NCBI GenBank assembly: GCA_014378105.1
Contig: JACMOI010000020.1
Span: forward strand, 1-35,662
DNA length: 35,662 bases
Source: Pseudopedobacter sp.
GTDB taxonomy: Bacteria; Bacteroidota; Bacteroidia; Sphingobacteriales; Sphingobacteriaceae
Reading direction: 5' to 3'
The notes beneath the pieces are model-generated. The model worked only from the letters and a program-made list of their open reading frames with translations, searched no databases and was not told the DNA's origin. The position numbers and the translations under genes are program-made. Positions 1,874 through 25,069 of the stretch are shown here, piece by piece (within the stretch, counting starts at the first letter, position 1; each line of letters opens with the position of its first letter).

Positions 1874-2179
1874 TTACGCTCCCTGTATCAGAAAGCAAAT
1901 ACTATCTTCCAAAGCTTCCACTGCATGAATCACATCTACAGGAATATCTAACTCGTCAAATTTATTTAACACCAAAGCCCTGTCTACTTCTTTGTAATCC
2001 ACCTTGCCTTCAATTACTACAAGTTTAGCAGGAATAGGCGTTGAATGCTCTTTCAAAATCATTCCTTTTTTAAAGCCTAATACAATTACTTTATAGTCCT
2101 TTCCTTTCTTAAATATTTTGATGCTTGGTTGATTGGTATCTTGATTTGCTAATTGTTTTAATACATCTTTAATAACCAT
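1874..2179 (-). CDS. Small single-domain cupin protein
   Basis: 101 residues with the beta-strand and glycine pattern of a small cupin: GFKKGMILKEHSTPIPAKLVVIEG covers the first motif region with one His, and DIPVDVIHAVEAL the second with one His. The canonical metal set (two His and Glu in motif 1) is incomplete, so metal binding is uncertain. It is the last gene of the minus-strand cluster, 17 bases after the ferredoxin gene. Cupins of this type are frequent companions of hemerythrin and globin genes in Bacteroidota, possibly as sensors or small-molecule binders, but no reaction can be assigned. Fold likely, role unknown. Confidence 0.7.
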   Translation of the reverse strand: MVIKDVLKQLANQDTNQPSIKIFKKGKDYKVIVLGFKKGMILKEHSTPIPAKLVVIEGKVDYKEVDRALVLNKFDELDIPVDVIHAVEALEDSICFLIQGA

Positions 2180-2196
2180 TTTTTTATGCTTTAAAT

Positions 2197-2514
2197 TTAT
2201 ATAATCCTAATTTTTATTCCTTTTAAACTTTCGTCAACTAAAAGCTGACAAGCCAACTTGATATTAGGCTGATTGATGTTCATTTTACTTAACGTAGTTT
2301 CTTCATTTCTATCTTGTCCTTTCAAATCATCGTTACCTTCTAAAATCTCAATCAAGCAAGTACCACACTTGCCCATACCTTTACAATCGTCAAAATATTC
2401 ATCTGTTAATTCATTAAGGAGTAATACTATTAAATTGGCATAAGCATGTTTTGTTGTTTGCAGAAAATAGCTGTTGCCATCGTAAATCACCTCTATCTTG
2501 ATAATTGAAGTCAT
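2197..2514 (-). CDS. Plant-type 2Fe-2S ferredoxin
   Basis: 105 residues. The cluster ligands are Cys44, Cys50, Cys53 and Cys89, in the spacing C-x5-C-x2-C-x35-C (CKGMGKCGTC then ACQ), matching plant-type and adrenodoxin-like ferredoxins. It is a soluble one-electron carrier in the cytosol. It sits six bases after the hemerythrin gene and 17 before the cupin, so they are almost certainly co-transcribed. A natural inference is that it supplies electrons to the hemerythrin or truncated haemoglobin, but the sequence does not show the partner. No fused reductase domain is present, so it needs a separate NAD(P)H reductase. Confidence 0.85.
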   Translation of the reverse strand: MTSIIKIEVIYDGNSYFLQTTKHAYANLIVLLLNELTDEYFDDCKGMGKCGTCLIEILEGNDDLKGQDRNEETTLSKMNINQPNIKLACQLLVDESLKGIKIRII

Positions 2515-2520
2515 AAAGAA

Positions 2521-2991
2521 TTAGGCTTTTATCCAAAATTCATCTTCATAATCATCTTTATAAACAGTATGAAATTGAGCTAAACGACGTCTAATTTCTT
2601 CTAATTTTTGTTCAGACAATAACAATTCTAAATTTGGAAACAATACTCTTTCTTCAAAACGGATATGTTGATTGATAAGTTGAGCTAAATGCAGGTAATC
2701 ATGCTTACCTCTCTCTTCATTATTCTTTATTTTTTCAATTTCTTTTCTGATAATTTGATGATCTTCTTTTGCCTTATCACAAAAAGGATCGTTAATAGGA
2801 TCGAAAAGTAATTCTTCCTCTTCCTTAAAATGAACAGCTAAATGATTCGTCCAAAAAAATTCTACATATGACTTTACCCTATGTAAAGGAATATTTTTTT
2901 TAATTCCTTCAGTTATTTTCCAGCAAAACAATAGTCCAAAATGATGGTCTTTGGATAAAGCTACAATATTTGAATTTCTTTTAATTGGCAT
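2521..2991 (-). CDS. Hemerythrin (HHE) domain protein
   Basis: 156 residues with the four-helix HHE pattern: KDHH near 14-17, NHLAVHFKEEEELLF near 49-63, EDHQIIRKEIEK near 76-87 and INQHIRFEERVLFP near 106-119. These His, Glu and Asp residues normally hold a non-haem di-iron centre. Such proteins bind O2 or NO, or repair iron-sulfur centres damaged by NO (RIC/YtfE relatives), in the cytosol. It lacks the N-terminal ScdA domain of full RIC proteins. Its neighbours are a truncated haemoglobin upstream and a ferredoxin downstream. Family secure; O2, NO or iron-repair role is inference. Confidence 0.85.
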   Translation of the reverse strand: MPIKRNSNIVALSKDHHFGLLFCWKITEGIKKNIPLHRVKSYVEFFWTNHLAVHFKEEEELLFDPINDPFCDKAKEDHQIIRKEIEKIKNNEERGKHDYLHLAQLINQHIRFEERVLFPNLELLLSEQKLEEIRRRLAQFHTVYKDDYEDEFWIKA

Positions 2992-3030
2992 AAATAATTG
3001 AAGATTATGTTCTTGATTGATTTAAACGAT

Positions 3031-3048
3031 ATTCAATTATAATTGAAT
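3031..3048. promoter_or_regulatory. Perfect 18-base palindrome before the hemerythrin gene
   Basis: ATTCAATTATAATTGAAT is self-complementary over all 18 bases. It lies 40 bases upstream of the hemerythrin start and just past the haemoglobin stop. Size and symmetry fit a dimeric regulator site; there is no T run, so it is not a standard terminator. The regulator is unknown. Confidence 0.4.
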
Positions 3049-3057
3049 GGATTATCT

Positions 3058-3441
3058 CTAAACAATTACATGATGTGTGTCCCCATTTAATAATTCTAAT
3101 CTTTTCATAAACATGGTTGCCATTAATTGGGCTCTATTTTTAACCTCTGCAGCCATTATTCCTTCAAAATTTTGATCAATCACTTGATCAAAAAGAGCAA
3201 TCCATCTTGTAAAATGATCAGATTTCAATCCTAAAGGGGCATGTTTTGCAAATGGATTTCCTTTAAAACCAGGCACTCCAAAAAGAGCGGCATTCCAAAA
3301 TCCATACATCTTATTTAAATGGGGTTCCCAATCTTCTATCTGTGCTAAAAAAACAGGCCCAATAAATTGATCTTCTCTAACTTTTTGGTAAAACTGATCG
3401 ACAAAAATTTGAATATCTTTGAGGTCTTTAATATCTTTCAT
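3058..3441 (-). CDS. Group III truncated haemoglobin
   Basis: 127 residues, the usual length for group III truncated globins. Recognisable signatures are DQFYQKVREDQFIGPVF near 15-31, FWNAALFGVPGFKGNPFAKHAPL near 48-70 and DHFTRWIALFDQ near 75-86. The likely proximal haem ligand is His67 in the FAKHAPL segment (F8 position). These cytosolic haem proteins bind O2 very tightly or react with NO. The gene ends just before a palindrome and the hemerythrin gene, and starts 15 bases after the Ig-like membrane protein gene, linking it to the oxidase operon. Family sure; O2 delivery, peroxide or NO chemistry is not decided by sequence. Confidence 0.9.
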   Translation of the reverse strand: MKDIKDLKDIQIFVDQFYQKVREDQFIGPVFLAQIEDWEPHLNKMYGFWNAALFGVPGFKGNPFAKHAPLGLKSDHFTRWIALFDQVIDQNFEGIMAAEVKNRAQLMATMFMKRLELLNGDTHHVIV

Positions 3442-3456
3442 CTTATTTTTTTAAGA

Positions 3457-3867
3457 TTAAAACAAAGCAATTGCACCTGAGGTAATGACATAAAATGTTG
3501 CCCATCCTATAAATAAAATGAGCAGAATAATAATCCAAATAGGAATACTATGCGGCGTTTCGCTCCCGTGTAAAACAAACGATGTTTGATTGCCTTTGCC
3601 ATAAGCGTTAATCATCAGAGGCACAATTCCATCGACTACTTCATCTTTTTTTAAACCTTCTATAGCTATTGCAGGTCCATTTCTTACCGTAAACGGAATC
3701 AATTTGAGACCTTCTTTCCCGTTCTGATCTTTACTCACAATTTTTAAGGTGTGCTGACCATCAGTTAGTTTTCGAGTATCTAATTCAAAAGAAACTGGAG
3801 TTGGGAAACTACCAATTGGTTGTAATTCGTCATCAATAAATAAAGTGACCAAGCTTTTGCTTTTCAT
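3457..3867 (-). CDS. Ig-like domain protein with C-terminal membrane anchor, in oxidase operon
   Basis: 136 residues. Residues 1-100 have an Ig-like beta-sandwich pattern: LFIDDELQPIGSFPTPVSFE, then TRKLTDGQHTLKIVSKDQNG, then a second strand set ending VPLMINAYGKG. One strong membrane segment (about 109-131, rich in Ile, Leu and Trp) closes the protein. No N-terminal signal peptide is visible, and the upstream frame is closed by a stop (3892-3894), so the ATG at 3867 is the only likely start; it overlaps the previous stop as TAATG. It is translationally coupled to the 96-residue gene. It may be an accessory oxidase subunit taking the place of CcoH/FixH-type proteins, but I cannot name a family. 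Confidence 0.6.
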   Translation of the reverse strand: MKSKSLVTLFIDDELQPIGSFPTPVSFELDTRKLTDGQHTLKIVSKDQNGKEGLKLIPFTVRNGPAIAIEGLKKDEVVDGIVPLMINAYGKGNQTSFVLHGSETPHSIPIWIIILLILFIGWATFYVITSGAIALF

Positions 3868-4157
3868 TATTGTTGATTTAAAATAGTATTTTTAATATGG
3901 CTATATTTTTTTTCAGATGGTTTTACAAAACATTTCACAGCCGCGTACAGAGAATAAAGTGTTACCAAAACCATAATGATAACCACAAAATAATCCCAAT
4001 TGCTTTGTGGACCATTGCCATGTGTGATACCTCTTAATATTTTAGGCTGATTTTGATTACAAGCTTCACACGCCATAGTTGGAATATGGTTTATAAGAAT
4101 TAAGAATACTAATAGAATCAGCTTCCGATATTTATTTGAACTTAATTTCCGCATCAT
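3867..4157 (-). CDS. Small membrane protein with exported CxxC motif, oxidase-associated
   Basis: 96 residues (start ATG 4157 or the next codon, ATG 4154). A hydrophobic signal or anchor (12-29) ends in TMACEACNQNQPKI, so a CxxC pair lands at the outer face. A conserved-looking stretch, ITHGNGPQSNWDYF, follows, then a second membrane helix (about 57-75) and a basic tail. The Cys in TMAC could be a weak lipobox. The start overlaps the stop of the diheme cytochrome gene as ATGATG, so it belongs to the complex. A small second-helix subunit (CcoQ-like) or a metal or thiol assembly factor are both possible; I do not recognise the family. Confidence 0.6.
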   Translation of the reverse strand: MMRKLSSNKYRKLILLVFLILINHIPTMACEACNQNQPKILRGITHGNGPQSNWDYFVVIIMVLVTLYSLYAAVKCFVKPSEKKYSHIKNTILNQQ

Positions 4158-5158
4158 TTTCCAATTAAATCAATTATTTTTTTTATTTCGGCTGCATCTA
4201 CTTTTCTTGCTTTATTACCCCAGCTATTACGCTCATGGTTCATTATAGCTGCTACTTCTTCTGGTTTCAGATTATTATTTGTACCAACTGCAGGCATCAA
4301 TCCATAACCTTCACTCACGCGTCCGTTATAACCTTTCATAATAATAGTTATCAACGTCTTTGGATCATCATTCAGCACAATTTGGCTACCTTTTAAAGAT
4401 GGAAATGCACCCTTAAGTCCTTCTCCATTTTCTTGATGACAGCTTTGACAATTTGCTGCATATAAACTTTTACCGTCTAATTCAACACTTCCATTATTGG
4501 AACCTGCTAATGCTTTTGATTCTGGCTTTGGATATAGAAAAATAGGAACAGGTTTGCCATCAGGTAGTTTAGTTTGTTTTAACGATTGTAAATAAGCCAC
4601 CAGTTCCATAGCCTCAGGCTTAGCAACAATATCCCCTACAATTCCTTGTCTAAATTCATCCGGAACCATCACCTTTACATCATTTTTATTACTGTTCTCT
4701 TTAACTTCAAAAAGCCAAGGATAAGCAGGCATAATAGAGCCAGTAGAAACTGAACGCGGATTATATAAGTGTAATAAGTGCCAATCTTTTCCGGGTTGTC
4801 TGACGCCAATATTGGTTAAATCTGGTCCGGTACGCTCTGATCCTAAAAGGTTTGCCGTATTTCGCCAAATATCTGTCCGGGTATTTCCTGCATAATCTGC
4901 TGCAATACTGGGACGATCTCCCCATACTTTATCCATATCTACATTTCTAACTTGTTGCGTATGACAAGCAATACAACCTTCTTTTACAAAAATAGCTTTA
5001 CCTAATGTTTCTTGTTCTGTTAATGGTTTACTGTTAGGTAAAGGGGCATTGTTTTCTTGCGCCTGATACGCTGGAATTATTGCGGCAAAAAATGTAAGCG
5101 CCAGAAAAAACACCAAAGCAATGGTAAATAAGCGTTTATGATGATTATATATTTCCAT
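4154..5158 (-). CDS. Diheme cytochrome c: CcoO-like domain fused to CcoP-like domain
   Basis: 334 residues. One N-terminal membrane anchor (10-29) is followed by an exported part. Haem site 1 is Cys62-x2-Cys65-His66 inside GCIACHTQQVRN, then KVWGDRPSIAADY and the axial-Met region SIMPAYPW (Met143); this is the CcoO (FixO) signature. Haem site 2 is Cys237-x2-Cys240-His241 in CQSCHQENGEG with Met289 in GLMPAVG, like the terminal cytochrome c domain of CcoP. Canonical cbb3 has separate CcoO (one haem) and CcoP (two haems); here one chain carries one domain of each. It follows ccoN by eight bases and would pass electrons into that subunit. Confidence 0.88.
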   Translation of the reverse strand: MEIYNHHKRLFTIALVFFLALTFFAAIIPAYQAQENNAPLPNSKPLTEQETLGKAIFVKEGCIACHTQQVRNVDMDKVWGDRPSIAADYAGNTRTDIWRNTANLLGSERTGPDLTNIGVRQPGKDWHLLHLYNPRSVSTGSIMPAYPWLFEVKENSNKNDVKVMVPDEFRQGIVGDIVAKPEAMELVAYLQSLKQTKLPDGKPVPIFLYPKPESKALAGSNNGSVELDGKSLYAANCQSCHQENGEGLKGAFPSLKGSQIVLNDDPKTLITIIMKGYNGRVSEGYGLMPAVGTNNNLKPEEVAAIMNHERNSWGNKARKVDAAEIKKIIDLIGK

Positions 5159-5166
5159 GTGATAAA

Positions 5167-6966
5167 TTAATTTATTTTTTTCAGTTGATCGAATACAGCA
5201 GTTTGTGTATCAATATCATCTGTTTGGCGAATCATGAAATACAAATTATAAGCAAAAATGAGGTGAGATGCCCACATTAACGAACCACCAATTGCTCGCC
5301 ATAACCAATAAGGAGCCATAGCAACAACTGTATCAATAAAAGGTTGTCCTTCTTGCCAAGCTATGCCTCTTAATGTACTTCCAATCATTAATGGGATGGT
5401 GTAAAAAAGTAAACCGATAAATGCCATCCAAAAATGCGCTCCTACCAAAACGTGTTTTGGTTCTTTACCTGTTAATCTAGGTACTAGTGTATAAATAAAT
5501 GCCCATAACATAAAAGTAATAATGCCGTACATGGTTAAATGCGAATGGGCGACTGTAAAATCTGTAAAGTGCCAATACAAATTTGCTGATCTAAATGCCT
5601 CAGCAGTCCCTTGAAAAGAGCCAGTAAAATAAAATACAATCCCTACCAAATAAAATGGCAAAGTATAGCTTGATCCAATTTTATGAAAGTTCCCTTTCAT
5701 CGTCATTAAAAAATTAGTTGTGCCAGCTGCTACAGGGATTAGCATTCCCATACTACCAATAATGGCGGTAGTTTGTAACCACCAAGGAATAGCACTAAAA
5801 ATAAAATGATGAGTGCCAATAACCGTATAAAAAAGAATTTGTGTCCAAAAAGCGAGTATTCCTAGACTATAAGAGTAAATAGGAGTGTTCAATTGTTGAG
5901 GCAAGAAATAATAAATTAAACCTAAACTGAAGAGCATAAACCACATCCCAACCCCTTGATGCATATAATAACCTTGAGCTATTGTTTCGCCTAAACCATT
6001 TTGCCAAAAAGGCAAGTAAGCGACCAGCGTGATGACAACTGTAAATATTGCCGCCGATACAATATACCAGTTAGAGATATATATTTCTTTAGTAGTCCTT
6101 TTGGCGATAATCTGTATATAATTGAATAGAGTAATCACCAGTCCAATAGCAAAAAGCAGCATGATAGGCCATATATACTCGCGGTACTCTCCTCCTGCAT
6201 TATTAATACCTGCCATTAAAGAAATACTACCTATTAAAACAGAAGCATTTATTAACCATAAGGCATACCAGGCATTTTTTAAAGATTTTACGACGGTATT
6301 ACTAACTGTATAAACCACATAATAACCTAAGCCAATCATAGCTAAAGAACACCATCCCCAAAAAACCATATTGGTATGTACTGGCCTTAATCGTCCGAAA
6401 CTTAACCAACTGATATGATCTACATCAGGGCTAACAAATTTAATCCCCAAATATTCGCCAATAGAAGTCCCTAAAACCAACCAAAAAGTGGCTGACATTA
6501 AATACCAAATTACCAATCTAGATAAGCCAAGGTCTACCTTTGGTCTTATTGTAGAACGTTTTTTTGATGGTATGAACCTTGCTGTATTTATTTCGTTCAC
6601 CTGATGGATTAAGCCTTTCTTATCTTCTGCTTTTAAATCTCCACCGAGTTCATGATCGTTTAAAGAATAATCAACCGCAGCTTTCCGCTTTATTAATTCT
6701 TGTTCAAGCGTATTTAAGTCATCATCTTTTAACGCATTTAAGATTTTGTTTCCCTGTTCTATAGCCTCCCTTAAACTTACCTTTTTTGCCAAATTTCTAA
6801 CTTTTACAACAGCTAAATAAACAACAATTAATAAGGGAATAAGAATCAGTGCAATAGTAATTAATACACCTGGGTTGGTTAAAACCGACTGGCTATCTTG
6901 CTCGCTTGCAGCCTGAACACTAAAGGCAGGTAGCAACATCATAGGGAATGTAAAATATTTTTTCAT
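5167..6966 (-). CDS. ccoN: cbb3-type (C-family) haem-copper oxidase catalytic subunit, divergent CcoN
   Basis: Integral membrane subunit I. I start it at ATG 6966, one base after the upstream stop; this gives a signal peptide (MKKYF to about SVQA). The upstream alternative, 6999, overlaps the previous gene. Numbering from 6999: extra membrane helix 44-66, charged linker to 150, then the 12-helix core. Low-spin haem ligand is His208 (RLRPVHTN), CuB ligands His347 (YYMHQG) and His397/398 (IGTHHF), cross-linked Tyr391, haem ligands His485 and His487 (VAHSHL). Thus all C-family metal ligands and the active-site Tyr are present and FeB glutamates of NO reductase are not. The segment that is FEGP in usual CcoN reads FQGT (Gln463). 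Reduces O2 at high affinity, or possibly NO. Confidence 0.88.
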   Translation of the reverse strand: MKKYFTFPMMLLPAFSVQAASEQDSQSVLTNPGVLITIALILIPLLIVVYLAVVKVRNLAKKVSLREAIEQGNKILNALKDDDLNTLEQELIKRKAAVDYSLNDHELGGDLKAEDKKGLIHQVNEINTARFIPSKKRSTIRPKVDLGLSRLVIWYLMSATFWLVLGTSIGEYLGIKFVSPDVDHISWLSFGRLRPVHTNMVFWGWCSLAMIGLGYYVVYTVSNTVVKSLKNAWYALWLINASVLIGSISLMAGINNAGGEYREYIWPIMLLFAIGLVITLFNYIQIIAKRTTKEIYISNWYIVSAAIFTVVITLVAYLPFWQNGLGETIAQGYYMHQGVGMWFMLFSLGLIYYFLPQQLNTPIYSYSLGILAFWTQILFYTVIGTHHFIFSAIPWWLQTTAIIGSMGMLIPVAAGTTNFLMTMKGNFHKIGSSYTLPFYLVGIVFYFTGSFQGTAEAFRSANLYWHFTDFTVAHSHLTMYGIITFMLWAFIYTLVPRLTGKEPKHVLVGAHFWMAFIGLLFYTIPLMIGSTLRGIAWQEGQPFIDTVVAMAPYWLWRAIGGSLMWASHLIFAYNLYFMIRQTDDIDTQTAVFDQLKKIN

Positions 6967-6967
6967 T

Positions 6968-7303
6968 TTAATTTTCTGTGGGTTTTGACTGATTATCATT
7001 TTCCAACTTATTAACCTCTTTAATCAAAATCTCTAATTGATCTGCATTAAAATCATAGAGTTTATGATTAATCCATTCGGCTCCATCTTTCTTATTCTGA
7101 TGAGCAGCTTCATTTAACTTTTTAGCTCCTCTTATTAACCGAAAGGCTAAAACCATAAGAATTAGCAAACTGCTAAGAATAATCGTAGTGCTCCATAAAT
7201 TACTATTATTTACATGCCCTGATGCTGCAAACCCATAAAATGGAAACATACTCAGAATGAACCAGCTACCAATAAATACTAAATATTTTTTAAGCATTTT
7301 CAT
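6968..7303 (-). CDS. Small membrane protein resembling the N-terminal extension of the CcoN-like subunit
   Basis: 111 residues. A signal peptide (1-27, ending near YGFAASG) precedes a membrane helix (about 37-57) and a charged helical tail with KKLNEAAHQ and FNADQLEILIKEVNK. The same layout (signal, helix, AKK, amphipathic helix with DDLNTLEQELIKRK) occurs at the start of the oxidase subunit just downstream, which suggests duplication. It is the first structural gene after the Rrf2 regulator, 48 bases from it, and ends one base before the ccoN start. Probably an accessory subunit of this oxidase; no known family recognised. Confidence 0.6.
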   Translation of the reverse strand: MKMLKKYLVFIGSWFILSMFPFYGFAASGHVNNSNLWSTTIILSSLLILMVLAFRLIRGAKKLNEAAHQNKKDGAEWINHKLYDFNADQLEILIKEVNKLENDNQSKPTEN

Positions 7304-7326
7304 TTATATTGATATTAATACCTTTT

Positions 7327-7339
7327 TATCTTTTATTAT
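7327..7339 (-). promoter_or_regulatory. Half-site of the Rrf2 palindrome in front of the oxidase operon
   Basis: TATCTTTTATTAT (plus strand) is identical over 13 bases to 7838-7850 within the palindrome upstream of the Rrf2 gene. It lies 24 bases before the first structural gene, in a 48-base gap where an operator would act. Binding by the Rrf2 protein is inference. Confidence 0.5.
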
Positions 7340-7351
7340 AACTGTAAAAAA

Positions 7352-7789
7352 TTATTTCTTTAAACTGATGATACCTAAATTTAAATCGTCATTAAAATCT
7401 TCAATAGAAGTAGTCAATAACATATGGTGTATTTTATTTCTAATGTCCTTAAATTCATGGTGTAATGGACATGGATTACTTTCAGAACAATAATCCAGCC
7501 CCAAACCACAACCAGTAAATAAACCATTGCCATCAACAGCTTCTACTACGTCAGCTAAAGGACGCTTCAAAGTATTTTTATCCATAAAAAAGCCTCCATT
7601 TGGTCCTTTCGCAGATTGTACAATCCCTCTCCTACTTAAATCTTGTAAAATTTTAGCTAAAAAATGTTCTGGAGAACTAATTCCTTTTGCTATTTCTTTG
7701 ATGCCTACTCTCCCTCCATCAGCGGTTTTATGAGCTATAAAAAAAACTGATCTTATTGCATACTCACATGTTTTTGAAAATATTCCCAT
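7352..7789 (-). CDS. Rrf2-family iron-sulfur transcriptional regulator (NsrR/IscR-like)
   Basis: 145 residues from ATG 7789. A farther ATG at 7810 is open too, but the -7 box TATCTTTG falls inside it, so the inner start is preferred. The N-terminal winged helix-turn-helix covers 1-75 (CEYAIRSVFFIA, IKEIAKGISSPEHFLAKILQDLSRRGIV, KGPNGGFF). A sensor loop with Cys94, Cys101 and Cys107 (CGLGLDYCSESNPC) matches the three-Cys cluster site of NsrR, IscR and RsrR, with spacing x6/x5 instead of x5/x5. Such proteins sense NO, iron-sulfur status or redox state through a cluster. It precedes the oxidase-globin-hemerythrin genes in the same direction and is the obvious regulator. NO sensing is likely but not proven. 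Confidence 0.9.
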   Translation of the reverse strand: MGIFSKTCEYAIRSVFFIAHKTADGGRVGIKEIAKGISSPEHFLAKILQDLSRRGIVQSAKGPNGGFFMDKNTLKRPLADVVEAVDGNGLFTGCGLGLDYCSESNPCPLHHEFKDIRNKIHHMLLTTSIEDFNDDLNLGIISLKK

Positions 7790-7798
7790 TTGCAACAG

Positions 7799-7855
7799 CA
7801 AAGATATCATATGAATTTCAATAATAAAAGATATTTATATCTTTTATTATTGAAA
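7799..7855 (-). promoter_or_regulatory. Rrf2 promoter with 40-base palindromic operator
   Basis: Arms TTTCAATAATAAAAGATAT (7816-7834) and its exact reverse complement (7837-7855) are separated by two bases. On the minus strand TATCTTTG (7806-7799) is a perfect TAnnTTTG -7 box nine bases before the ATG at 7789, so the palindrome covers the -33 region. The core AAAGATATTTATATCTTT resembles the two-fold symmetric sites of NsrR-type Rrf2 proteins (AAGATG.. arms). Autorepression is inferred. Confidence 0.65.
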
Positions 7856-12076: not shown

Positions 12077-13465
12077 TCACTTTTGTGCTTTTAAAAAAGC
12101 TACAATCTGCCCCAACTCTTTGTTGCTGAGTATAGAGCCATAAGCGGGCATATTTTTACCGCCGTTGATCATCTGAACGTTCAATTGGTCTGCGCTCCAA
12201 GTTCTTCCTATTAGTGTTAAATCTGGTCCATTCTCTCCACCATTTCCTTGAATTTTGTGGCAATATTGGCAACCTTTTTTATAAAAAAGTACCATTCCAT
12301 CTTTCATTTGTGGGTTGGTGGCTTTTACTTGCTCGTAAATAGGTTTCGTGTCAAAATTAGGCGACCAAGGTGCTTTCAATCCGATGTAAAGCAGTGTGCC
12401 TACAAAAACGATAAAGCATAAGGTGCCGAAAACTGCCCAAGGTCTTCTAATTGGGCTTCGTTCTCCTTTGTTTGATATAAAAGGAAGTGCTAAAAGTCCG
12501 AAAATGGTAAGTACAGGTCCAATTACGATGATATAGGATTCGATTTTTGGAGGCATTAACGCAAAAAGAGCAAAAATTGGAATCATGTACCAGTCTGGTG
12601 TTGGTGTTGTTTTGATGATGGAAGGATCTGGAGCTTGCGTAAGTGCGGGTGCCCCAAATATAATTGCCAAACCAACAATGCAAATGACCACCACCGATCC
12701 AAAAAGTGCATCACGCCAAGCTGCATTTGGCCAAAAAGGAACACCTTCTTTGTTAAGCATATCCCGATACCATTTGCGGTAGGTTCTAGGATCAACTAAC
12801 CGCCCGGCTTTTGGAGGTTCTGAGATTCCGTTTTTAAAAACCAAAAATAAATGCAAACCAATGAGCATGAACATTAATGCTGGGAACAAGAAAACGTGAA
12901 AAGAAAAAAAGCGGTTTAAGGTATGTTCGCCGATGGCGCTTCCGCCCAAAAGAATTTGCACCAGATAAGTCCCGATTAGCGGAATGCGACCTAACTGCTC
13001 GGCCGCAACCACTGATGACCAAACTCCGTTAGAATCCCAACGTAAAAGCTGACCGGTAAATCCCATGGCAATGGTTAAAAACAAAAGAATAATTCCTGTT
13101 ATCCAGTTCATTTCGCGGGGATACTTATAGGCTGCCGTAATATAAACCCTTACCATGTGGATACCCACAAACAAAATCATTCCTGAAGCACCGAAATAAT
13201 GAATTCCTCGTAAAACATTGCCTAAAAAAACTTGGTTGGTGATATAATCTAAAGAGTGATAAGCATCTGCCGATGATGGTTGATAAAGCAAGCTCAACCC
13301 AACGCCCGTTACTACTTGCAAAATGAAACAGAATAGCGTAGCACTACCAAAAACATAATTCCATTTTGCGCCAGGAGGCACAAGGTGTTTTGCCAATGGC
13401 TTTACGACTTCCGAAATTCCTGTGCGATCATCAATCCAGTATGCTATTTTTTTTAAAAAACCCAT
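12077..13465 (-). CDS. Cytochrome b of a bc complex with fused C-terminal cytochrome c
   Basis: 462 residues. The N-terminal part (1-260) is a b6-type cytochrome b: haem ligands His89/His103 (GIHYFG, GIHMVRV) and His190/His205 (SFHVFL, GLHLFL), spaced 14 and 15 as in cytochrome b6. Further helices follow, with a quinol-site motif reading PDWYMIP rather than PEWY (about 291-297). A monohaem cytochrome c domain closes the chain: Cys399-x2-Cys402-His403 (GCQYCHKIQG) and axial Met439 (KNMPAYG). Quinol is oxidised and electrons pass from the Rieske centre to the fused haem. Last gene of the caa3 operon, one base after the Rieske gene. No separate cytochrome c1 is present. Sure of family and fusion. 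Confidence 0.92.
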   Translation of the reverse strand: MGFLKKIAYWIDDRTGISEVVKPLAKHLVPPGAKWNYVFGSATLFCFILQVVTGVGLSLLYQPSSADAYHSLDYITNQVFLGNVLRGIHYFGASGMILFVGIHMVRVYITAAYKYPREMNWITGIILLFLTIAMGFTGQLLRWDSNGVWSSVVAAEQLGRIPLIGTYLVQILLGGSAIGEHTLNRFFSFHVFLFPALMFMLIGLHLFLVFKNGISEPPKAGRLVDPRTYRKWYRDMLNKEGVPFWPNAAWRDALFGSVVVICIVGLAIIFGAPALTQAPDPSIIKTTPTPDWYMIPIFALFALMPPKIESYIIVIGPVLTIFGLLALPFISNKGERSPIRRPWAVFGTLCFIVFVGTLLYIGLKAPWSPNFDTKPIYEQVKATNPQMKDGMVLFYKKGCQYCHKIQGNGGENGPDLTLIGRTWSADQLNVQMINGGKNMPAYGSILSNKELGQIVAFLKAQK

Positions 13466-13466
13466 A

Positions 13467-13976
13467 TTAAGCTGTGATTTTAGTCAGTGGAATTGGTGCC
13501 GTTTTAACCTCTACATTTCCATTTTTTACGCGGATACTGTATTGCGCTAAACTTTTTGGCGGTGGTCCGGCTGCAACGGTTCCGTCCTGGTAATAAACGC
13601 CTCCGTGGCATGGGCACATAAATAGTTCTGCATCTTTTTCCCATCGAACTGGGCAACCTAAATGTGTACAGTTTGCAGAAAAGCAAATAAATTTTCCATT
13701 AACATCATGCCGTACCCAAGCTGCAGAGTTTGCACTTACACCAGCCCAATCTCCAGACTCGGCATTTTTAAACTTCACTAATTTGGTTTCGCCGAGTGCA
13801 AAATCAGAAAGTTTACCTACCGCTCGCCACGTTTGCTTTTTTTTATGGATGAGTGGTTGCACTAATGCACCTATTATGGGAACTCCAGCTAAAACTGCAG
13901 CAAAGCCCCCCAAACCTAAACTGAACTTCATTAAAAAGTTTCTGCGAGATTCACTAATTTCTTTCTCTTCCTTCAT
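13467..13976 (-). CDS. Rieske iron-sulfur protein of the bc complex
   Basis: 169 residues. A twin-arginine type start (SRRNFLMKF, 10-18) and hydrophobic anchor (20-42) place the soluble domain outside the cytoplasmic membrane. The 2Fe-2S ligands are Cys103/His105 in CTHLGC and Cys121/His124 in CPCHGG, with Cys108 and Cys123 as the disulfide pair. It moves electrons from quinol to the cytochrome c domain of the next gene. The start overlaps the stop of the upstream small gene by 23 bases; moving to the inner Met16 would lose the arginine pair, so the longer form is favoured. Confidence 0.93.
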   Translation of the reverse strand: MKEEKEISESRRNFLMKFSLGLGGFAAVLAGVPIIGALVQPLIHKKKQTWRAVGKLSDFALGETKLVKFKNAESGDWAGVSANSAAWVRHDVNGKFICFSANCTHLGCPVRWEKDAELFMCPCHGGVYYQDGTVAAGPPPKSLAQYSIRVKNGNVEVKTAPIPLTKITA

Positions 13977-14178
13977 TTCTTAAAGTATTTATCCATTTTA
14001 ATAAAGTATAGACGATAAGCACAAAACCCGCCAAAGAAATTAACCAACTGGTAACAATGCCCCACATTAAAAAGATTAAACCAAGGGCTAGAAAAAATGG
14101 CCAATAGGTTGGTTCCGGCAACTTCTGCGGCTTTGCGAAATTTTCTTGTTCTTCTTGTTTATCAACTGGATTTATCAT
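13954..14178 (-). CDS. Small membrane subunit of the caa3/bc operon (subunit IV-like)
   Basis: 74 residues with a polar, Glu/Gln-rich N-terminus, the stretch LPEPTYWPFFLALGLIFLMW, and two closely packed membrane helices (about 27-62), ending in a basic tail. Position between the CtaG-like and Rieske genes, with short overlaps on both sides, suggests a structural subunit such as the caa3 subunit IV. The PxPTYWP motif before the first helix is seen in small cytochrome oxidase subunits. Too short for a firm family call. Confidence 0.6.
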   Translation of the reverse strand: MINPVDKQEEQENFAKPQKLPEPTYWPFFLALGLIFLMWGIVTSWLISLAGFVLIVYTLLKWINTLRNEGRERN

Positions 14179-14999
14179 TATAAATAGTTCCTTTTCAATT
14201 TTGATGAGTTGATACTGTCCTCTTCTTTTTCATTCATCCATTTAAAAAATAAAATCATACAGCCACTTAAATAAATGAAACAACAGGGAACCCACATGGT
14301 TAAACCCGCCATTTGCTGGTCGTTTCCTCTGCTGATATCCCAACCGTTTTTAATAAGTGTAGAGAATCCAAATTCATCGGACATATAATAATGGTGGTAT
14401 AAAGTTGGCGGAGCAAAGGTTAAAAACAAACCTAAAACCGAACAGCCCACGCAAGCGGTAAATAAATAAACTACGCCAACCAAAGGATGGATGCGCAAAG
14501 ATTTATGCGGTCCTAAAATTGGCCAACTAAAAAACACACCGGCTAGCAGCAAGGTTGCTAAGTGCAAAAAAGCGAGCGGACTTATTGATAATAAATCGTG
14601 TTGTTTTGGAAAAGAAGCATCAAATATGCTTGGGATATGCCAAAACCACATCAAACCAATACCAGAAAGCCAGCCTATCCATGGGTATCGGTTAAAAAAC
14701 CAAGATAGCGACTTGATGGTTTTATTTTCTGTTTCCCTCGGAATACCCATTAATATTAAGGGACCGCAGATTAGTAAAAGTAAAATATGCATAACCATGT
14801 AAGCACTTAATAAATAATGCATTCCTAAAAAATGCAATGGCGAAAGTGCCAGAATCAGCATCAAAAAGCATCCGGCAAAATACAATCCAGCACCTTTTAA
14901 AAGTTGATTGCTAGAGAGTTTAAAGTAAACCGAAATAAGTGCTATAAAAAGTAGGCTTGCACCGAAATCAAAGCTCCATTGTAAAAGAATTGTTTCCAT
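14178..14999 (-). CDS. ctaG: CtaG-like caa3 oxidase assembly protein
   Basis: 273 residues from ATG 14999 (METILLQWSFDF). A longer frame reaches 15074 but would overlap the subunit III gene by 73 bases, so the inner start, two bases after that gene's stop, is chosen. At least six to seven membrane helices; conserved-looking segments include YLLSAYMVMHILLL, WFWHIPSIFDA and GLTMWVPCCFIYLSG, with His and Met residues facing the outer side, in keeping with the caa3_CtaG family. Such proteins support copper insertion or maturation of caa3-type oxidases in Bacillus and relatives. The operon has no SCO gene in this window. Confidence 0.8.
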   Translation of the reverse strand: METILLQWSFDFGASLLFIALISVYFKLSSNQLLKGAGLYFAGCFLMLILALSPLHFLGMHYLLSAYMVMHILLLLICGPLILMGIPRETENKTIKSLSWFFNRYPWIGWLSGIGLMWFWHIPSIFDASFPKQHDLLSISPLAFLHLATLLLAGVFFSWPILGPHKSLRIHPLVGVVYLFTACVGCSVLGLFLTFAPPTLYHHYYMSDEFGFSTLIKNGWDISRGNDQQMAGLTMWVPCCFIYLSGCMILFFKWMNEKEEDSINSSKLKRNYL

Positions 15000-15001
15000 A
15001 A

Positions 15002-15556
15002 CTACTTTAATAAATAAGGTACAACATAAACCAGCGTAAAAACCAGTATCCAAACGATATCTACAAAGTGCCAATACATGCCAATTGAACCAAGTACAGT
15101 GGAGTTTGGTCGGTCAAAATCGCCCAAAAGGGCTAAAATTAAAACGATAATCAACAATATTAAACCGATAATCACGTGGAAAGCATGTAGCCCCGTTAAG
15201 GTAAAAAAGTTGGTACTAAAAATATCCAGACTGATACTGAAATTTTGAGTTAAAAGCTTTGCATATTCTTTAAGCTGCCCGAAAAGAAAAACTCCTCCCA
15301 AAAAGATGGTTGCTGCTAACCAAATCTTTAGTTTTTTTATTTCTCCAATTGCATAGTTTTTTTCTGCTTGCATCAAAGTAAAACTGCTTGAGAACAGTAA
15401 AACGGAAAATAATCCAGTAGTTTTAATATCCAAGTAATGGTTTGCTTGTTTGGTAAATCCGACGCTTAAGGCAAAATAAACGTAGGTGATCATGATACAG
15501 ATAAACAGTACAGATTCTGTGGCAATTACCAATTTCATCATTAATTTATTCTCCAT
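15002..15556 (-). CDS. Cytochrome c oxidase subunit III
   Basis: 184 residues and five membrane helices, the short form found in caa3 oxidases. Typical stretches are ESVLFICIMITYVYFAL near the start, TGLHAFHVIIGLILLI in the middle (lipid-binding core helix) and GMYWHFVDIVWILVFTLVYV at the end. It stabilises subunit I during turnover and has no redox centre. It overlaps the end of the subunit I gene by 11 bases and is followed by the CtaG-like gene after one base, so the operon is translationally coupled. Confidence 0.92.
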   Translation of the reverse strand: MENKLMMKLVIATESVLFICIMITYVYFALSVGFTKQANHYLDIKTTGLFSVLLFSSSFTLMQAEKNYAIGEIKKLKIWLAATIFLGGVFLFGQLKEYAKLLTQNFSISLDIFSTNFFTLTGLHAFHVIIGLILLIIVLILALLGDFDRPNSTVLGSIGMYWHFVDIVWILVFTLVYVVPYLLK

Positions 15557-17204
15557 GATGCTCGTTTGTGTTTGCTAATTTTATATCTCTAAATGGTCTG
15601 TATGACTCTATTGGAGGTAACGTTTCAAAATTTTTGAGTTGCGGTGGAGATGTGGTCATCCACTCTAAAGTATAAGCGTCCCAAGGGTCATTGCCGGCAA
15701 TTTTTCCTTTTTTATAACTTTTTACCAGAATGTAGAAAAGTAATAAAAACGAAGCTCCCATTAAAAATCCACCGACGGTAGAAAGCATATTCATCCAAGC
15801 ATATCCGTTGATATCGGCGTAAGTGTAAACCCGACGTGGCATGCCTTCGATTCCTAAAATATGTTGTATAAAAAAGGTCATGTTAAAACCGATGACGAAA
15901 AACCAAAAGAAAAGCTTGCCCAATTTTTCGTCAATCATTTTGCCTGTCATTTTTGGAAACCAGTAGAACAGACCCGCCAAAATCCCGAATAAACTACCGC
16001 CTACAAACACATAATGTAAATGTGCAACCACAAAATAGCTATCTGTTAATTGCCAGTCTATTGGTACAATTGCGAAAGCAATTCCGCTTAAACCACCCAT
16101 GGTAAATTCTACCAAAAAAGCCATCGCGAAAAGCATTGAGGTGGTAAACCGGATTGAACCACCCCACATTGTACCCAACCAAGTGAAAATTTTGATACCC
16201 GTTGGAATTCCAATCAGCATACTTGCGGCGGCAAAATAACTATAAACTGTATTTCCTAAACCCACTGTAAACATGTGATGTGCCCAAACACCAAAGGCGA
16301 GCAATGCTATCGCAATGCCAGAACCTACAATCATGTTATAACCAAAAATCGGCTTCCGCGAATAAACCTGAAAAACCTCTGAAAGCACCCCGAAAGAGGG
16401 TAAAATAAGAATGTAAACTTCGGGATGCCCAAAACCCCAAAAAAGATGTTGCCAAACCACGGGAGAACCTCCACTTGTGGAGTTGAAAAAATGCGTTTCC
16501 AATTGCCTATCCAACAAAAGCATACTTAAAGCTGCATTTAATGGTGGGAAAGCAGCAACTATTAAAAAAGAATTAATCAAAATCATCCATACAAAAATGG
16601 GTAGCTTTTTAAAGGTCATTCCTTTTGCCCGATAATAAACAATTGTTACGATTAAGTTGATGGATGTTGCCACCGTACCTATACCAACTAACAATAAACC
16701 AATGCAGTAATAATCTATCCCATTGCTGGAAGAGTAAGTTCTTTCGTTTAAGGGAGCATAATTAAACCAGCCTGCATCTGGTGCGCCACCCGCTAAAAAA
16801 CTGAAGTACAACAATAAACCTCCAAAAAAAGCAATCCACAGGCTTAGCGCATTCATCCGTGGAAAAGCTAAATCATTTGCACCAATCATTAAAGGCACAA
16901 AGTAAACCGAGAAGCCAAGTATAATTGGGGTCATCACCAAAAAAACCATTGTAGTACCATGCATGGTAAAAAGCTGGTTATACATTTCTGGTGTGAGGAA
17001 ATTATTCTCGGGAAAGGCTAATTGAATTCTGATTAATAAAGCCGCTATTCCTCCCAAAACCAAAAAGAACACGCCCACTATCAAATACATAATACCAATT
17101 TGCTTATGGTCAACCGAGCTGATCCATTGTAATAAACCCTGACTGTTGCTGATGTTGGTATCGGGTAAATTGTTTTCTGGCTCAGGTATGTAAAGTTCTT
17201 CCAT
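15546..17204 (-). CDS. Cytochrome c oxidase subunit I (A-family)
   Basis: 552 residues, 12 helices. Low-spin haem ligand His in FTMHGTTMVF (about 80-89), CuB His and cross-linked Tyr in WGFGHPEVYILILP (about 256-269), CuB His pair in VWAHHMFTVG, and the haem ligands in VVAHLHYVFVGG. GHPEVY keeps the D-channel Glu, putting it in the A1 type of haem-copper oxidases. It reduces O2 to water and pumps protons. It is coupled by TAATG to the subunit II gene and overlaps subunit III. Together with the Rieske/bc genes downstream this forms a complete quinol-to-oxygen pathway. Confidence 0.95.
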   Translation of the reverse strand: MEELYIPEPENNLPDTNISNSQGLLQWISSVDHKQIGIMYLIVGVFFLVLGGIAALLIRIQLAFPENNFLTPEMYNQLFTMHGTTMVFLVMTPIILGFSVYFVPLMIGANDLAFPRMNALSLWIAFFGGLLLYFSFLAGGAPDAGWFNYAPLNERTYSSSNGIDYYCIGLLLVGIGTVATSINLIVTIVYYRAKGMTFKKLPIFVWMILINSFLIVAAFPPLNAALSMLLLDRQLETHFFNSTSGGSPVVWQHLFWGFGHPEVYILILPSFGVLSEVFQVYSRKPIFGYNMIVGSGIAIALLAFGVWAHHMFTVGLGNTVYSYFAAASMLIGIPTGIKIFTWLGTMWGGSIRFTTSMLFAMAFLVEFTMGGLSGIAFAIVPIDWQLTDSYFVVAHLHYVFVGGSLFGILAGLFYWFPKMTGKMIDEKLGKLFFWFFVIGFNMTFFIQHILGIEGMPRRVYTYADINGYAWMNMLSTVGGFLMGASFLLLFYILVKSYKKGKIAGNDPWDAYTLEWMTTSPPQLKNFETLPPIESYRPFRDIKLANTNEHHGE

Positions 17205-18166
17205 TATTTTAACGTATTTAGGTAAGCCAACAAAGCAGCTTTTTCTTGTTTGTTAAAGTGAAAATTGGGCATATTTACGCCGGGTTTTACTGCATTGGGA
17301 TTGGAGATAAAAGCGTATAAATTTTCTTTAGTATTTGCTTTTGTACCCGATAAGATGGTTTTCCGGCTGGCTAAGTGGGTTAAGTCTGGCCCCACATCTC
17401 CTTTTGCATCCGTTCCACGGATTTGATGACAACCTGCACAACTGGTTCTTTGAAAAATTGAAGCTCCGACAAATGCTATTGGATCTGTAATTTGCGTGGC
17501 TTCCTTTGCGCTTTCGGTTAACCATTTCTGATAATTTTCCTCGGTTTGTGCAATCACACGGATTCGCATTTTGGCATGTTGCTGTCCGCAGAACTCACTA
17601 CAAGTGCCCTCATAAATTCCTGGTTTATCTATATTTAACCACAAATAATTAACTGAACCGGGAATCATATCCATTTTTGGCCCGAATGAGGGCATCCACC
17701 AATCATGGATTACATCTGACGAGGTAAGTTTGAGCAACACTTTTCTGTTAGCGGGTAAATGGATTTCATTTGCTGTAACTACTTTGGTTCCGGGATAACT
17801 TACCTGCCACCACCATTGCCGTCCGTTTATAACCACCGTAGGTTTTCGGTTGATCACAACTGGCTCGGTTTGTTTCATGGTTTTTACAGTCAGGAAAAAG
17901 AAAAAAGAAATCATAATAAAAGGAATGCCCACCATAAAAATTTCCATTTTTCTGTTGCCATTTCTTTGTTTGGGTTCGGTATCGTTTGGCTTTGCCCGAT
18001 ACTTTATTGCTACGTAGATTAACAAGCCAATTACCAGCAACATGATAAAGGAAGCAGCTATGATGAAATAAATATCCAGATGGTACAATGTCCAGCCTCC
18101 CTGAGACTTAGGACTGAAAATTGAATTCTCGGTATGTTTTAAATCAGATTGAGATATGTTCTGCAT
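17204..18166 (-). CDS. Cytochrome c oxidase subunit II with fused cytochrome c (caa3 type)
   Basis: 320 residues from ATG 18166; a longer frame begins at a GTG (18253), but its extra 29 residues do not look like a subunit II start. Two helices (about 30-55 and 75-95) anchor the protein. Key sites: WWWQVSYP for electron entry, the CuA ligands His154 (VIHDWWMP), Cys189, Cys193, His197 and Met200 (CSEFCGQQHAKM), then the haem c site Cys243-x2-Cys246-His247 (CAGCHQIRG) with the axial Met of VNMPNF. It accepts electrons, here probably from the cytochrome c domain fused to cytochrome b. First gene of the operon. Confidence 0.93.
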   Translation of the reverse strand: MQNISQSDLKHTENSIFSPKSQGGWTLYHLDIYFIIAASFIMLLVIGLLIYVAIKYRAKPNDTEPKQRNGNRKMEIFMVGIPFIMISFFFFLTVKTMKQTEPVVINRKPTVVINGRQWWWQVSYPGTKVVTANEIHLPANRKVLLKLTSSDVIHDWWMPSFGPKMDMIPGSVNYLWLNIDKPGIYEGTCSEFCGQQHAKMRIRVIAQTEENYQKWLTESAKEATQITDPIAFVGASIFQRTSCAGCHQIRGTDAKGDVGPDLTHLASRKTILSGTKANTKENLYAFISNPNAVKPGVNMPNFHFNKQEKAALLAYLNTLK

Positions 18167-18670
18167 ATATTTTAGTTTGAACAGAAAAGCAAAGGTTGAC
18201 AGCAAGCATTTTGGCGATTCTGGCCAATTGTGCTTCACAACTTCAGGCACCACAAATTTTTGATATTAGAAGTTGAAACATTTTTGAATCAATTCTTTTA
18301 ATAAGCTAAAGCTGTTGTCCCTGCTATTTAATTAAGAAATTTATCTGATGACTGTTCATCATAAAAACGTTTTGATGCGCTACAGATGCAAATTTTGATG
18401 CCAAAACTATGCCAGTATGCAGATAAGAGACGTTATCAGTGTTTTGGAAGTACAAATACTTATCTAAGTACTTAATTGCACAAGAAAATAAGAGTAAATT
18501 ATTAAAATTTGGAGGAATCTGGAGACGAATTGGTTGTATGAAAATCCTTTCTATTTCTCTAAAAATTAAAAGTATGGCTTTGTCATCTAAGCTTTTTATT
18601 TAAAGCTCTTTTATCTCAATCTATTAAACAAAGCTCTCTTCTTTAGGTTAATTAAATAAAATCTTTAAAA
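18167..18670. other. Intergenic, about 500 bases, divergent promoters expected
   Basis: It separates the minus-strand caa3 operon from the plus-strand broken HAD gene. I saw no exact TAnnTTTG box with a good -33 partner, no gene and no notable repeat. Confidence 0.4.
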
Positions 18671-21697: not shown

Positions 21698-23956
<2,259 letters not shown>

Positions 23957-24061: not shown

Positions 24062-25069
24062 ACCTGAGTTCGATTAATAGAAAGCTACTAATTGATCAGA
24101 TTTCATGGTTTCAAATCTGATAGTAGGTTTCTTAGGGAAAAAGCTATAGACTATCAATCCAGCAATCATGTTTACGATAAAGTTGCCAAAAGAGCGATGT
24201 CTAGAATGTTCTACCTGACAGATGTTTTTGAGTTCGTCGTTAACAGTTTCTATAACTGACCTCTTTCTCAGCATAATTTTATCGTTCATACTCATTAAGC
24301 TGTTTTTCATGTTGTTACGAATGCCAGTTACCAGATGTATACCTCCGATAAACAATATTTTGACTAATTCTTTAGAGATATAGCCTTTATCTCCAAAAAG
24401 TTTTCCGAAGATATTTTTCAAAAAAACCTCATTCTTCAAAGGGTCTCTATCATCAACATTAGCCTGAGTGATAGCGAAATTCAGTATTTCCCCTTTATCG
24501 TTTATGACAATGTGAAGCTTAAAGCCATAAAACCAGCCTACTGTTGACTGCCCAACAGTTGCAGTATTTTTAAACACCTTATTCCTTTTGATACGCTTGT
24601 TCTTGCATACTCTGATTGGGGTTGAATCAACAAATGAAATACCCGTACAAGTCCCTAAACAACAGGTTTTAAGAAATATAGCCATTGGCATGACTACTGA
24701 TTGACTAAGTTCAACAAAGCGGTTGTAGGATACGGTATTGGGATAATCGTTCTGCATGTGTCGCTGAATATAGAAAAGATAGAAGTGTTTGAAACAACGA
24801 AAGCCACTCAGATGGAAAAGTATACAGATGGAAATTATTTCACTCTTGGACATCGTTAATGGTCTCTTAGATACCTTGCCAAGGATAAAAGACTGGGTGG
24901 TTTTATCAAAATCTTTGCAGAACTCATCTACAAGACAAAAAATATCGCTAATTTTAGAGTAGTCAATCATTAAGAATTACAGCTAAGTATTTGGTTTTAA
25001 GATACTTAAATATAAGCTTTCTTCTTGTGATTGACTAATTTATTTTCATATTATTAATCGAACTCAGGT
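24062..25069 (-). mobile_element. Complete IS982-family insertion sequence (1008 bp)
   Basis: The ends are perfect 17-base inverted repeats: ACCTGAGTTCGATTAAT (24062-24078) and its complement (25053-25069). They are flanked by the 5-base direct repeat TATTA (24057-24061 and 25070-25074), a target duplication. One intact transposase fills the element. Intact ends, duplication and gene suggest recent insertion between katG and the WbqC-like gene. It interrupts no recognised gene. Confidence 0.9.
24074..24970 (-). CDS. IS982-family DDE transposase
   Basis: 298 residues, normal for the family. The N-terminal part (1-100) is the helical DNA-binding region; the catalytic part has Asp in SFVDSTPIRVC (near 114), Asp in LFGDKGYIS (near 193) and Glu in KRSVIETVNDELK (near 239), forming the DDE triad, with KNICQVEHSRHRS after it as in IS982 proteins. 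It cuts and pastes the surrounding element. The frame is unbroken, so the element may still be active. The stop lies 12 bases inside one terminal repeat end. Confidence 0.93.
   Translation of the reverse strand: MIDYSKISDIFCLVDEFCKDFDKTTQSFILGKVSKRPLTMSKSEIISICILFHLSGFRCFKHFYLFYIQRHMQNDYPNTVSYNRFVELSQSVVMPMAIFLKTCCLGTCTGISFVDSTPIRVCKNKRIKRNKVFKNTATVGQSTVGWFYGFKLHIVINDKGEILNFAITQANVDDRDPLKNEVFLKNIFGKLFGDKGYISKELVKILFIGGIHLVTGIRNNMKNSLMSMNDKIMLRKRSVIETVNDELKNICQVEHSRHRSFGNFIVNMIAGLIVYSFFPKKPTIRFETMKSDQLVAFY

Follow-up and report, generated by a model that had tools for sequence, protein, structure and literature searches.

What does a divergent haem-copper oxidase do behind an Rrf2-family regulator, in a single run of genes with a globin, a hemerythrin and a ferredoxin? 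The question is raised by positions 1874–7855 of a 35,662-nucleotide stretch of Pseudopedobacter sp. DNA (contig JACMOI010000020.1, assembly GCA_014378105.1; the whole stretch is called the window below), for which an earlier note had suggested a defence system against nitric oxide (NO) or low O2. We propose, with a probability of about one half, that the cluster is one operon encoding an NO-responsive alternative terminal oxidase together with a cytosolic arm for NO handling and repair. This proposal draws on observed gene content, conservation, operator sequence and the residue pattern of the catalytic subunit. The assembly containing the window comprises 3.35 Mb in 191 contigs and belongs to Bacteroidota, with 96.7% completeness and 6.4% contamination. 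No publication on this subfamily, cluster or operator was found in the open full-text literature, as judged from titles and the starts of abstracts among the matches listed, subscription papers and preprints being outside that scope.

Organization of the cluster

Ten co-directional genes occupy positions 1874–7810 of the minus strand in the order rrf2, p111, ccoN-like, CcoO-c, p96, p136, globin, hemerythrin, ferredoxin and cupin-like. The closely spaced one-strand arrangement described earlier was confirmed, with spacing from −32 to 66 bases: 48 between rrf2 and p111, an overlap of 32 between p111 and ccoN, then 8, −4, −1, 15, 66, 6 and 17. Its right-hand limit at 7855 also stands, as the palindrome at 7816–7855 is real. 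The start of rrf2 is probably 7789 rather than 7810, because relatives start there. The features are as follows.

7816–7855, no strand: operator O1, a 40-bp palindrome (19 of 20 pairs) with its 26-bp core AATAAAAGATATAAATATCTTTTATT at 7823–7848, just upstream of rrf2
7352–7789, minus: Rrf2-family regulator, 145 aa, C94-x6-C101-x5-C107 (Pfam Rrf2, 87.4 bits)
7312–7337, no strand: candidate operator O2, a degenerate second copy in the rrf2–p111 gap, AATAAAAGAT-AAAAAG-GTATTAATAT
6968–7303, minus: p111, 111 aa, putative split-off N-terminal extension of the CcoN-like protein (profile match)
5167–6999, minus: CcoN-like catalytic subunit, 610 aa, divergent C-type haem-copper protein (Pfam COX1, 274.7 bits)
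4154–5158, minus: fusion of a CcoO domain and a cytochrome c domain (CcoO-c), 334 aa, two CxxCH motifs (FixO, 111 bits, plus Cytochrom_C)
3867–4157, minus: p96, 96 aa, with an N-terminal hydrophobic segment, CxxC, a conserved His and one further transmembrane segment
3457–3867, minus: p136, 136 aa, Ig-like strands and a C-terminal transmembrane segment, putative CcoP equivalent minus the haem domain
3058–3441, minus: bacterial-type (truncated) globin, 127 aa (Bac_globin, 27.3 bits)
2521–2991, minus: hemerythrin, 156 aa (PF01814, 39.8 bits)
2197–2514, minus: 2Fe-2S ferredoxin, 105 aa (Fer2, 27.2 bits)
1874–2179, minus: probable cupin-like protein, 101 aa (Cupin_2 in relatives)

Among the gene identities given in the earlier note, Pfam backs COX1, FixO plus cytochrome c, Bac_globin, Hemerythrin, Fer2 and Rrf2. 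The cupin identity of the 1874–2179 product is only probable: the protein itself has no Pfam match, and Cupin_2 was detected in 4 of 6 scanned relatives, one of them above the cut-off. The same note had found the cbb3 assembly genes ccoG, ccoH, ccoI and ccoS to be missing. They are indeed absent at the cluster, but another contig of this genome carries a canonical cco operon (ccoI, ccoS, fused ccoNO, ccoQ, ccoP, ccoG and ccoH; ccoN identified by TIGR00780 at 658.6 bits, the remaining genes by reading open reading frames, ORFs). Their absence is thus no longer puzzling, since the canonical operon can supply assembly factors to the cluster.

Co-conservation of the oxidase core and its neighbours

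A scan of one genome per species across 84,980 species yielded 335 CcoN-like relatives; family counts use the best 80 of these 335 and therefore apply to the nearer relatives. Among the matches listed, the closest relatives of the oxidase come from a Bacteroidetes metagenome-assembled genome (98%), Pedobacter arcticus (79%) and Pelobium manganitolerans (78%). The family stretches span 6.5 to 13.8 kb, some shortened by contig ends, and genes were counted anywhere in the stretch on either strand. As controls we used 20 stretches with canonical cco genes, taken from the same phylum and hand-chosen from 144 genomes above the TIGR00780 cut-off, two of them shortened.

Co-conservation across genomes, which had been named beforehand as the test that could refute the module, was found: the core and its neighbours recur in the 80 related loci and are nearly absent from the canonical stretches. 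Each gene of the oxidase core (CcoN-like, CcoO-c and the two small membrane proteins) is present in 77–80 of the 80 loci. Profiles counted CcoO-c in 79, p96 in 78, p136 in 77, rrf2 in 64, globin in 57, ferredoxin in 37, the iron-sulfur repair protein RIC and hemerythrin in 31 each and cupin in 15, figures biased toward the family side by profiles trained on the same 80 loci. Clustering alone gave 71–77 for the other three core genes, 63 for rrf2 and 56 for globin. Flavohaemoprotein matches occur in 7 of the 80, five strong and two weak cross-matches. The canonical stretches contained CcoN and CcoO matches in 20 of 20, as expected, with no p136, p96, rrf2, globin, ferredoxin or hemerythrin and one match each to RIC and cupin. 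The oxidase core is one unit, and its neighbourhood exceeds chance by far according to both the canonical-stretch and the operator controls. The cluster is patchy: p136 matches occur in 13 of 60 genomes (the window's own genome and one partial match counted), and a sample of 296 genomes of the phylum contains 8 clear and 3 weaker ones.

Three further proteins recur at these loci. A 147-aa protein without a Pfam match and hydrophobic by reading (L084 9933–10376) is found at 17 of 80 loci, often beside globin or RIC; a 110-aa protein without a Pfam match (L022 3494–3826) at 9; and a DUF488 protein (L075 4555–4920) at 11 by clustering and 13 by profile.

The regulator and its operator

The three cysteine columns of the Rrf2 protein are conserved in 74 of 74 aligned rows, 70 of them with the x6/x5 spacing. 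The NsrR type named in the earlier note is not supported for this regulator: the protein scores 33.8 bits against the NsrR model PRK11014 (cut-off 182), below its 53.8 and 52.7 bits for the IscR and RirA models, all three scores being under their cut-offs. Like the NsrR regulon, the cluster has an Rrf2 protein with three cysteines, and its operator, by sequence match, may also mark nirK, nos, RIC and globin genes. The palindrome itself is another one: the core consensus upstream of rrf2 reads AATAAAAGAY-N6-RTCTTTTATT, as against gATGyAT-N5-ATrCATc, the published NsrR motif (PMC1274295).

Upstream of rrf2 genes that precede ccoN, the core was present at no more than 3 mismatches in 37 of 56 regions (window included); the corresponding figures were 15 of 511 for other upstream regions at these loci and 0 of 1120 for mononucleotide shuffles. 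Two regions counted as failing (L040 and L054) do carry it, inside an over-long rrf2 ORF call. At 2 mismatches, 52 matches fell in 45 of the 80 loci (1.03 Mb), most of them before rrf2; the reversed control gave 1 and the canonical cco stretches (0.26 Mb) gave 0. In seven loci (L028, L030, L032, L059, L077, L086 and L087) the operator lies within 200 bases before ccoN; six of these have no rrf2 in the stretch, and in L059 rrf2 is far off on the opposite strand. Matches also precede RIC in L032, L085 and L093. The conserved 16-base part of O2 was found at no more than 3 mismatches in 33 of 56 rrf2–ccoN gaps and in 0.4% of shuffles. In the window, 16 bases separate the O1 core from TATCTTTG (7806–7799), which we take to fit the Bacteroidota −7 box, so that a repressor on O1 would cover the promoter.

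The operator recurs outside the cluster. In 21 whole genomes, the 26-base core at 2 mismatches gave 36 matches against 17 in the reversed control; the number of single matches consequently means little, and it is their position that counts. Eighteen of the 36 were read, in 15 regions. Ten of the 18 lie at nitrogen-oxide (N-oxide) genes, namely nirK, nosZ, RIC or rrf2–globin operons: nosZ with rrf2 in three genomes (G012, G039 and G037), nirK in G037, RIC operons in G002, G012 and G042, and an rrf2–globin–RIC operon in G040. Model scores at these sites were 352 bits for nirK and 929–941 bits for nosZ; G002 has two RIC-like genes, of which one falls slightly short of the RIC cut-off. Five further matches (G000, which is the window genome, G001, G003, G004 and G006) lie within ~5 kb of a p136 match. 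In an Rrf2 tree, five proteins encoded beside nosZ or RIC were all long-branched or distinct, and four of them grouped among the ccoN-linked proteins with modest support. Because the cluster and the nirK, nosZ and RIC operons have this operator in common, the set looks like a nitrogen-oxide regulon, judging from sequence, and the NO-type regulatory setting suggested in the earlier note is upheld to that extent.

A genome-wide scan of the window genome with the short operator AAAAGAY-N6-RTCTTTT at 2 mismatches was noise (305 matches against 360 in the reversed control). An exact second short-operator site on contig C142 precedes a gene whose product resembles RNase E/G by reading, and the 9 kb inspected there showed no N-oxide gene.

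RIC-like fusions of DUF2249, ScdA_N and hemerythrin (L128 5997–6950, L129 11199–12152 and L131 4977–5930; Pfam for the L128 member only) head operator-bearing operons with, by reading, a DUF1858/DUF2249-like gene, a membrane protein and a DUF59-like gene. The counterpart of this membrane protein in L198 has a weak COX1 match.

A divergent C-type catalytic subunit

The best fold match of the CcoN-like protein is 3mk7_A, a cbb3 structure (TM score 0.89 of target, E 4e-21; cNOR matches at E 3e-11), with 30% identity over the aligned model and 28–30% to solved CcoN proteins. Against the ccoN equivalog TIGR00780 it scores 241.7 bits, below the cut-off of 583.15. The window protein keeps H208, H347, Y391, H397, H398, H485 and H487, and carries M355, G380, A383, Q387 and Q463 in place of T215, S240, H243, L247 and E323 of P. 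stutzeri CcoN (whose numbering is used below). Presumably T215, S240 and H243 line a proton channel and E323 bonds the proximal histidine of haem b3; S240 we take to be the Ser of the published C-type channel.

We then compared 88 family rows (the window, the 80 loci and 7 further relatives from the phylum sample) with 30 canonical Bacteroidota CcoN sequences, each taken as the best-matching ORF. The six haem and CuB histidines, Tyr251, the helix VII tyrosine by which C-type enzymes are recognized, and Y223, Y237, E122 and E125 are invariant in 88/88. Position 240 is Gly, 243 Ala or Gly, 247 Gln or His and 323 Gln in all 88 rows, and 215 is Met in 83 and Thr in 5, whereas the canonical proteins have S, H, L, E and T at 240, 243, 247, 323 and 215 in 30/30. 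S240, H243 and E323 are thus replaced in 88/88 family rows and in 0/30 canonical ones. The alternative K-channel of C-type enzymes, described in PMC3084760 as Tyr-II with a Ser and a Tyr, is not preserved, as 240 and 243 are replaced throughout; tyrosines 223, 237 and 251 are kept.

With known NO reductases (NORs) the protein shares membership of the haem-copper superfamily and the weaker cNOR fold match. The first NOR motif, H-X-(Arom)-X-E (PMC3084760), is absent: the window reads H-Q-G-V-G, and residue 211 is Gly in 88/88. Reading the window protein for the second, H-H-X-(Arom)-(Arom)-X17-E, gave no match, and the cross-link tyrosine that NORs lack is invariant. A 54-row tree placed the family (34 rows, support 100/99), canonical cbb3 (16 rows, 100/100) and qNOR (4 rows) separately on long branches, cNOR not being included. 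On this residue pattern and separate clade, the CcoN-like family is assigned to a distinct C-type subfamily, and the tyrosine and CuB ligands would speak for O2 as substrate.

Small membrane proteins and the placement of haem

Like cbb3 (CcoNOQP), the cluster encodes a CcoO subunit, a separate CcoP-like protein and small membrane proteins, with p96 where canonical operons have ccoQ. It differs in the N-terminal CcoN extension of many members and in the Rrf2 operator, besides the residues above. The window's p111 matches this extension in longer CcoN-like relatives (27.9 bits, profile positions 1–110), and the N-terminus of the window CcoN-like protein matches positions 111–268 (162 bits). By profile, p111 is the first part of the extension, which forms a single polypeptide in longer relatives; the gene is split. 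A programmed frameshift between p111 and ccoN was rejected, because the two ORFs of L020 are separate, with a 4-base overlap, and the longer relatives have a single ORF.

Canonical cbb3 combines a monohaem CcoO with a dihaem CcoP. The cluster differs here as well: the CcoO-c fusion carries an additional haem c site (76 of 77 relatives have two CxxCH motifs), and p136 homologues of the nearer branch have none (0 CxxCH in 73/73). Five deeper relatives (L196–L200) have a longer p136 homologue of 274–333 aa with a cytochrome domain holding one CxxCH, which in L198 matches Pfam Cytochrome_CBB3. These deeper homologues identify p136 as a predicted CcoP equivalent with an Ig-like head whose haem domain is gone in the nearer branch. 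Its AlphaFold model, of modest confidence (pLDDT 71.8), consists of strands followed by a single 26-residue helix, and the fold search for p136 yielded nothing at or below E 0.001, just weak Ig/FnIII-like matches. In p96, C30, C33 and H46 are invariant in 22 aligned rows and CxxC occurs in 71 of 71 nearer-branch relatives; the homologues of the five deeper relatives are shorter (74–82 aa) and without CxxC. The protein has no convincing Pfam family, and CxxC with the His may possibly form a metal or thiol site.

The deeper clusters L196, L198 and L200 adjoin a carboxymuconolactone-decarboxylase-like gene and a small FAD/NAD reductase (Pfam, L198 only). This reductase is a possible electron donor; a reductase-like match also exists in the window genome (G000:C126:9904-10485). 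An NnrS identity for a 421-aa neighbour in L198 was rejected in favour of Pfam COX1 (41 bits).

Proposed function and rival explanations

In the proposed scheme, a cluster-type Rrf2 repressor bound to O1, and perhaps O2, would silence its own gene and the operon; damage to its Fe-S cluster by NO, or by a different nitrosative signal, would release it. Electrons would pass from cytochrome c through the diheme CcoO-c to haem b and the haem b3–CuB centre, which keeps the tyrosine of the His-Tyr cross-link. The divergent C-type enzyme would most likely still reduce O2 while NO poisons caa3 and canonical cbb3, and, lacking the customary channel residues of C-type enzymes, it may take up protons differently. 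In the cytosol, an arm of globin, hemerythrin and 2Fe-2S ferredoxin, often joined by RIC in relatives, would oxidise or trap NO and repair damaged iron centres. The regulator's ligand, the substrate and the tolerance of NO are what we infer here. A proposed precedent is the alternative oxidase Aox of Vibrio fischeri, which going by the title of a paper cited in PMC8780969 is reportedly NsrR-controlled and NO-induced, and would thus have in common with our proposal an alternative oxidase under an Rrf2/NsrR-type switch responding to NO. Aox is a diiron quinol oxidase, not a haem-copper enzyme; if O2 reduction holds, the cluster would encode a haem-copper counterpart of NO-induced alternative oxidases.

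Several results weigh against the NO-responsive oxidase. The whole-genome operator background is real: without G038 the count falls to 21 against 17, and G038 alone contributes 15 against 0. Seven of the 18 matches read lie at neither an N-oxide gene nor ccoN (4 of them in G038), and one belongs to the G002 ccoN cluster. With 2 mismatches allowed, 35 of 80 loci have no operator match, and 12 of 80 are devoid of all six NO-linked markers (rrf2, RIC, hmp, qNOR, hemerythrin and globin). A tie to the cell's own denitrification was unsupported by co-occurrence. Among the 60 genomes, nirK occurs in 3/12 cluster genomes versus 5/48 others (p 0.19), qNOR in 1/12 versus 8/48 (p 0.67) and RIC in 7/12 versus 19/48 (p 0.33); in the phylum sample of 296, nosZ occurs in 5/8 versus 93/288 (p 0.12). 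Dropped from these counts were a partial p136 match (G044), three weak ones (G187, G308 and G092), weak qNOR-query matches (G037 and G053) and matches below cut-off. No further NO gene turned up in the window genome with the searches made: NirK, NosZ, RIC and Hmp gave none above cut-off and qNOR none at E 1e-20, an absence that 96.7% completeness leaves uncertain, with cNOR (own model), NirS, Hcp, flavodiiron NO reductase and cytochrome bd outside the search. That S240, H243 and E323 are lost throughout is unexpected in a C-type O2 reductase, and the Rrf2 protein could sense O2, iron or Fe-S status instead.

That loss of channel residues is what a true NO reductase might show, one that turns NO into N2O with electrons from cytochrome c and is built as a C-type NOR with CuB and the tyrosine. 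No proton channel was seen in cNOR (PMC3084760), and P. stutzeri cbb3 itself is reported to reduce NO (PMC8780969). The operator common to nirK, nosZ and RIC operons also fits this, as does the single qNOR among 12 cluster-bearing genomes, although the 8 of 48 others are not significantly more. The missing H-X-(Arom)-X-E motif, the failing second motif, the invariant tyrosine, the clade apart from qNOR (in a tree lacking a cNOR row) and nirK above cut-off in only 3/12 cluster genomes tell against it, and we rate it as the main rival but rather unlikely. That the family constitutes a new haem-copper class of NO, or dual NO/O2, reductases, keeping CuB and the cross-link tyrosine and losing the C-type channel residues, is doubtful. 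The data do not separate the oxidase from the NO reductase, and genome-level co-occurrence of nirK and qNOR is no help.

The kept tyrosine would also suit a micro-oxic high-affinity oxidase whose Rrf2 cluster senses O2 or iron and whose globin and hemerythrin handle O2, not NO. The regulator's higher IscR and RirA than NsrR scores and the 12 marker-free loci agree with this, but the same operator stands at nirK, nosZ and RIC operons and the genome already has a canonical cbb3, which makes such a role unlikely. It is very improbable that the neighbours are a loose stress island with the oxidase as unrelated passenger. Cupin, hemerythrin, RIC and ferredoxin are each present in fewer than half of the loci, but the order of core, rrf2 and globin is kept across several families, and the operator stays before ccoN in the six loci without rrf2.

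The placement of the cluster at an N-oxide operator suggests a respiratory enzyme reserved for NO in some Bacteroidota. If the enzyme proves a true NO reductase, both NOR profiles and the rule that tyrosine means O2 would overlook a Bacteroidota N2O source, and N2O-source surveys relying on known NOR profiles would undercount this phylum. Either way, this C-type branch, with metal site and tyrosine frozen and with S240, H243 and E323 replaced throughout, offers a natural experiment on the role of those residues.

Other features of the window

An apparent bc-caa3 operon lies at 12077–18253 on the minus strand; its genes, named by reading translations, are Rieske, cytochrome b with a C-terminal cytochrome c fusion, CtaG-like, CtaE-like, CtaD-like and CoxB–cytochrome c. 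A tRNA-Ser (TGA) is encoded at 707–792 on the plus strand, where overlapping ORFs are probably not genes. A transposase-like ORF of 298 aa (24074–24970, minus) lies downstream of a catalase-peroxidase-like gene (21704–23956), both identified by reading.

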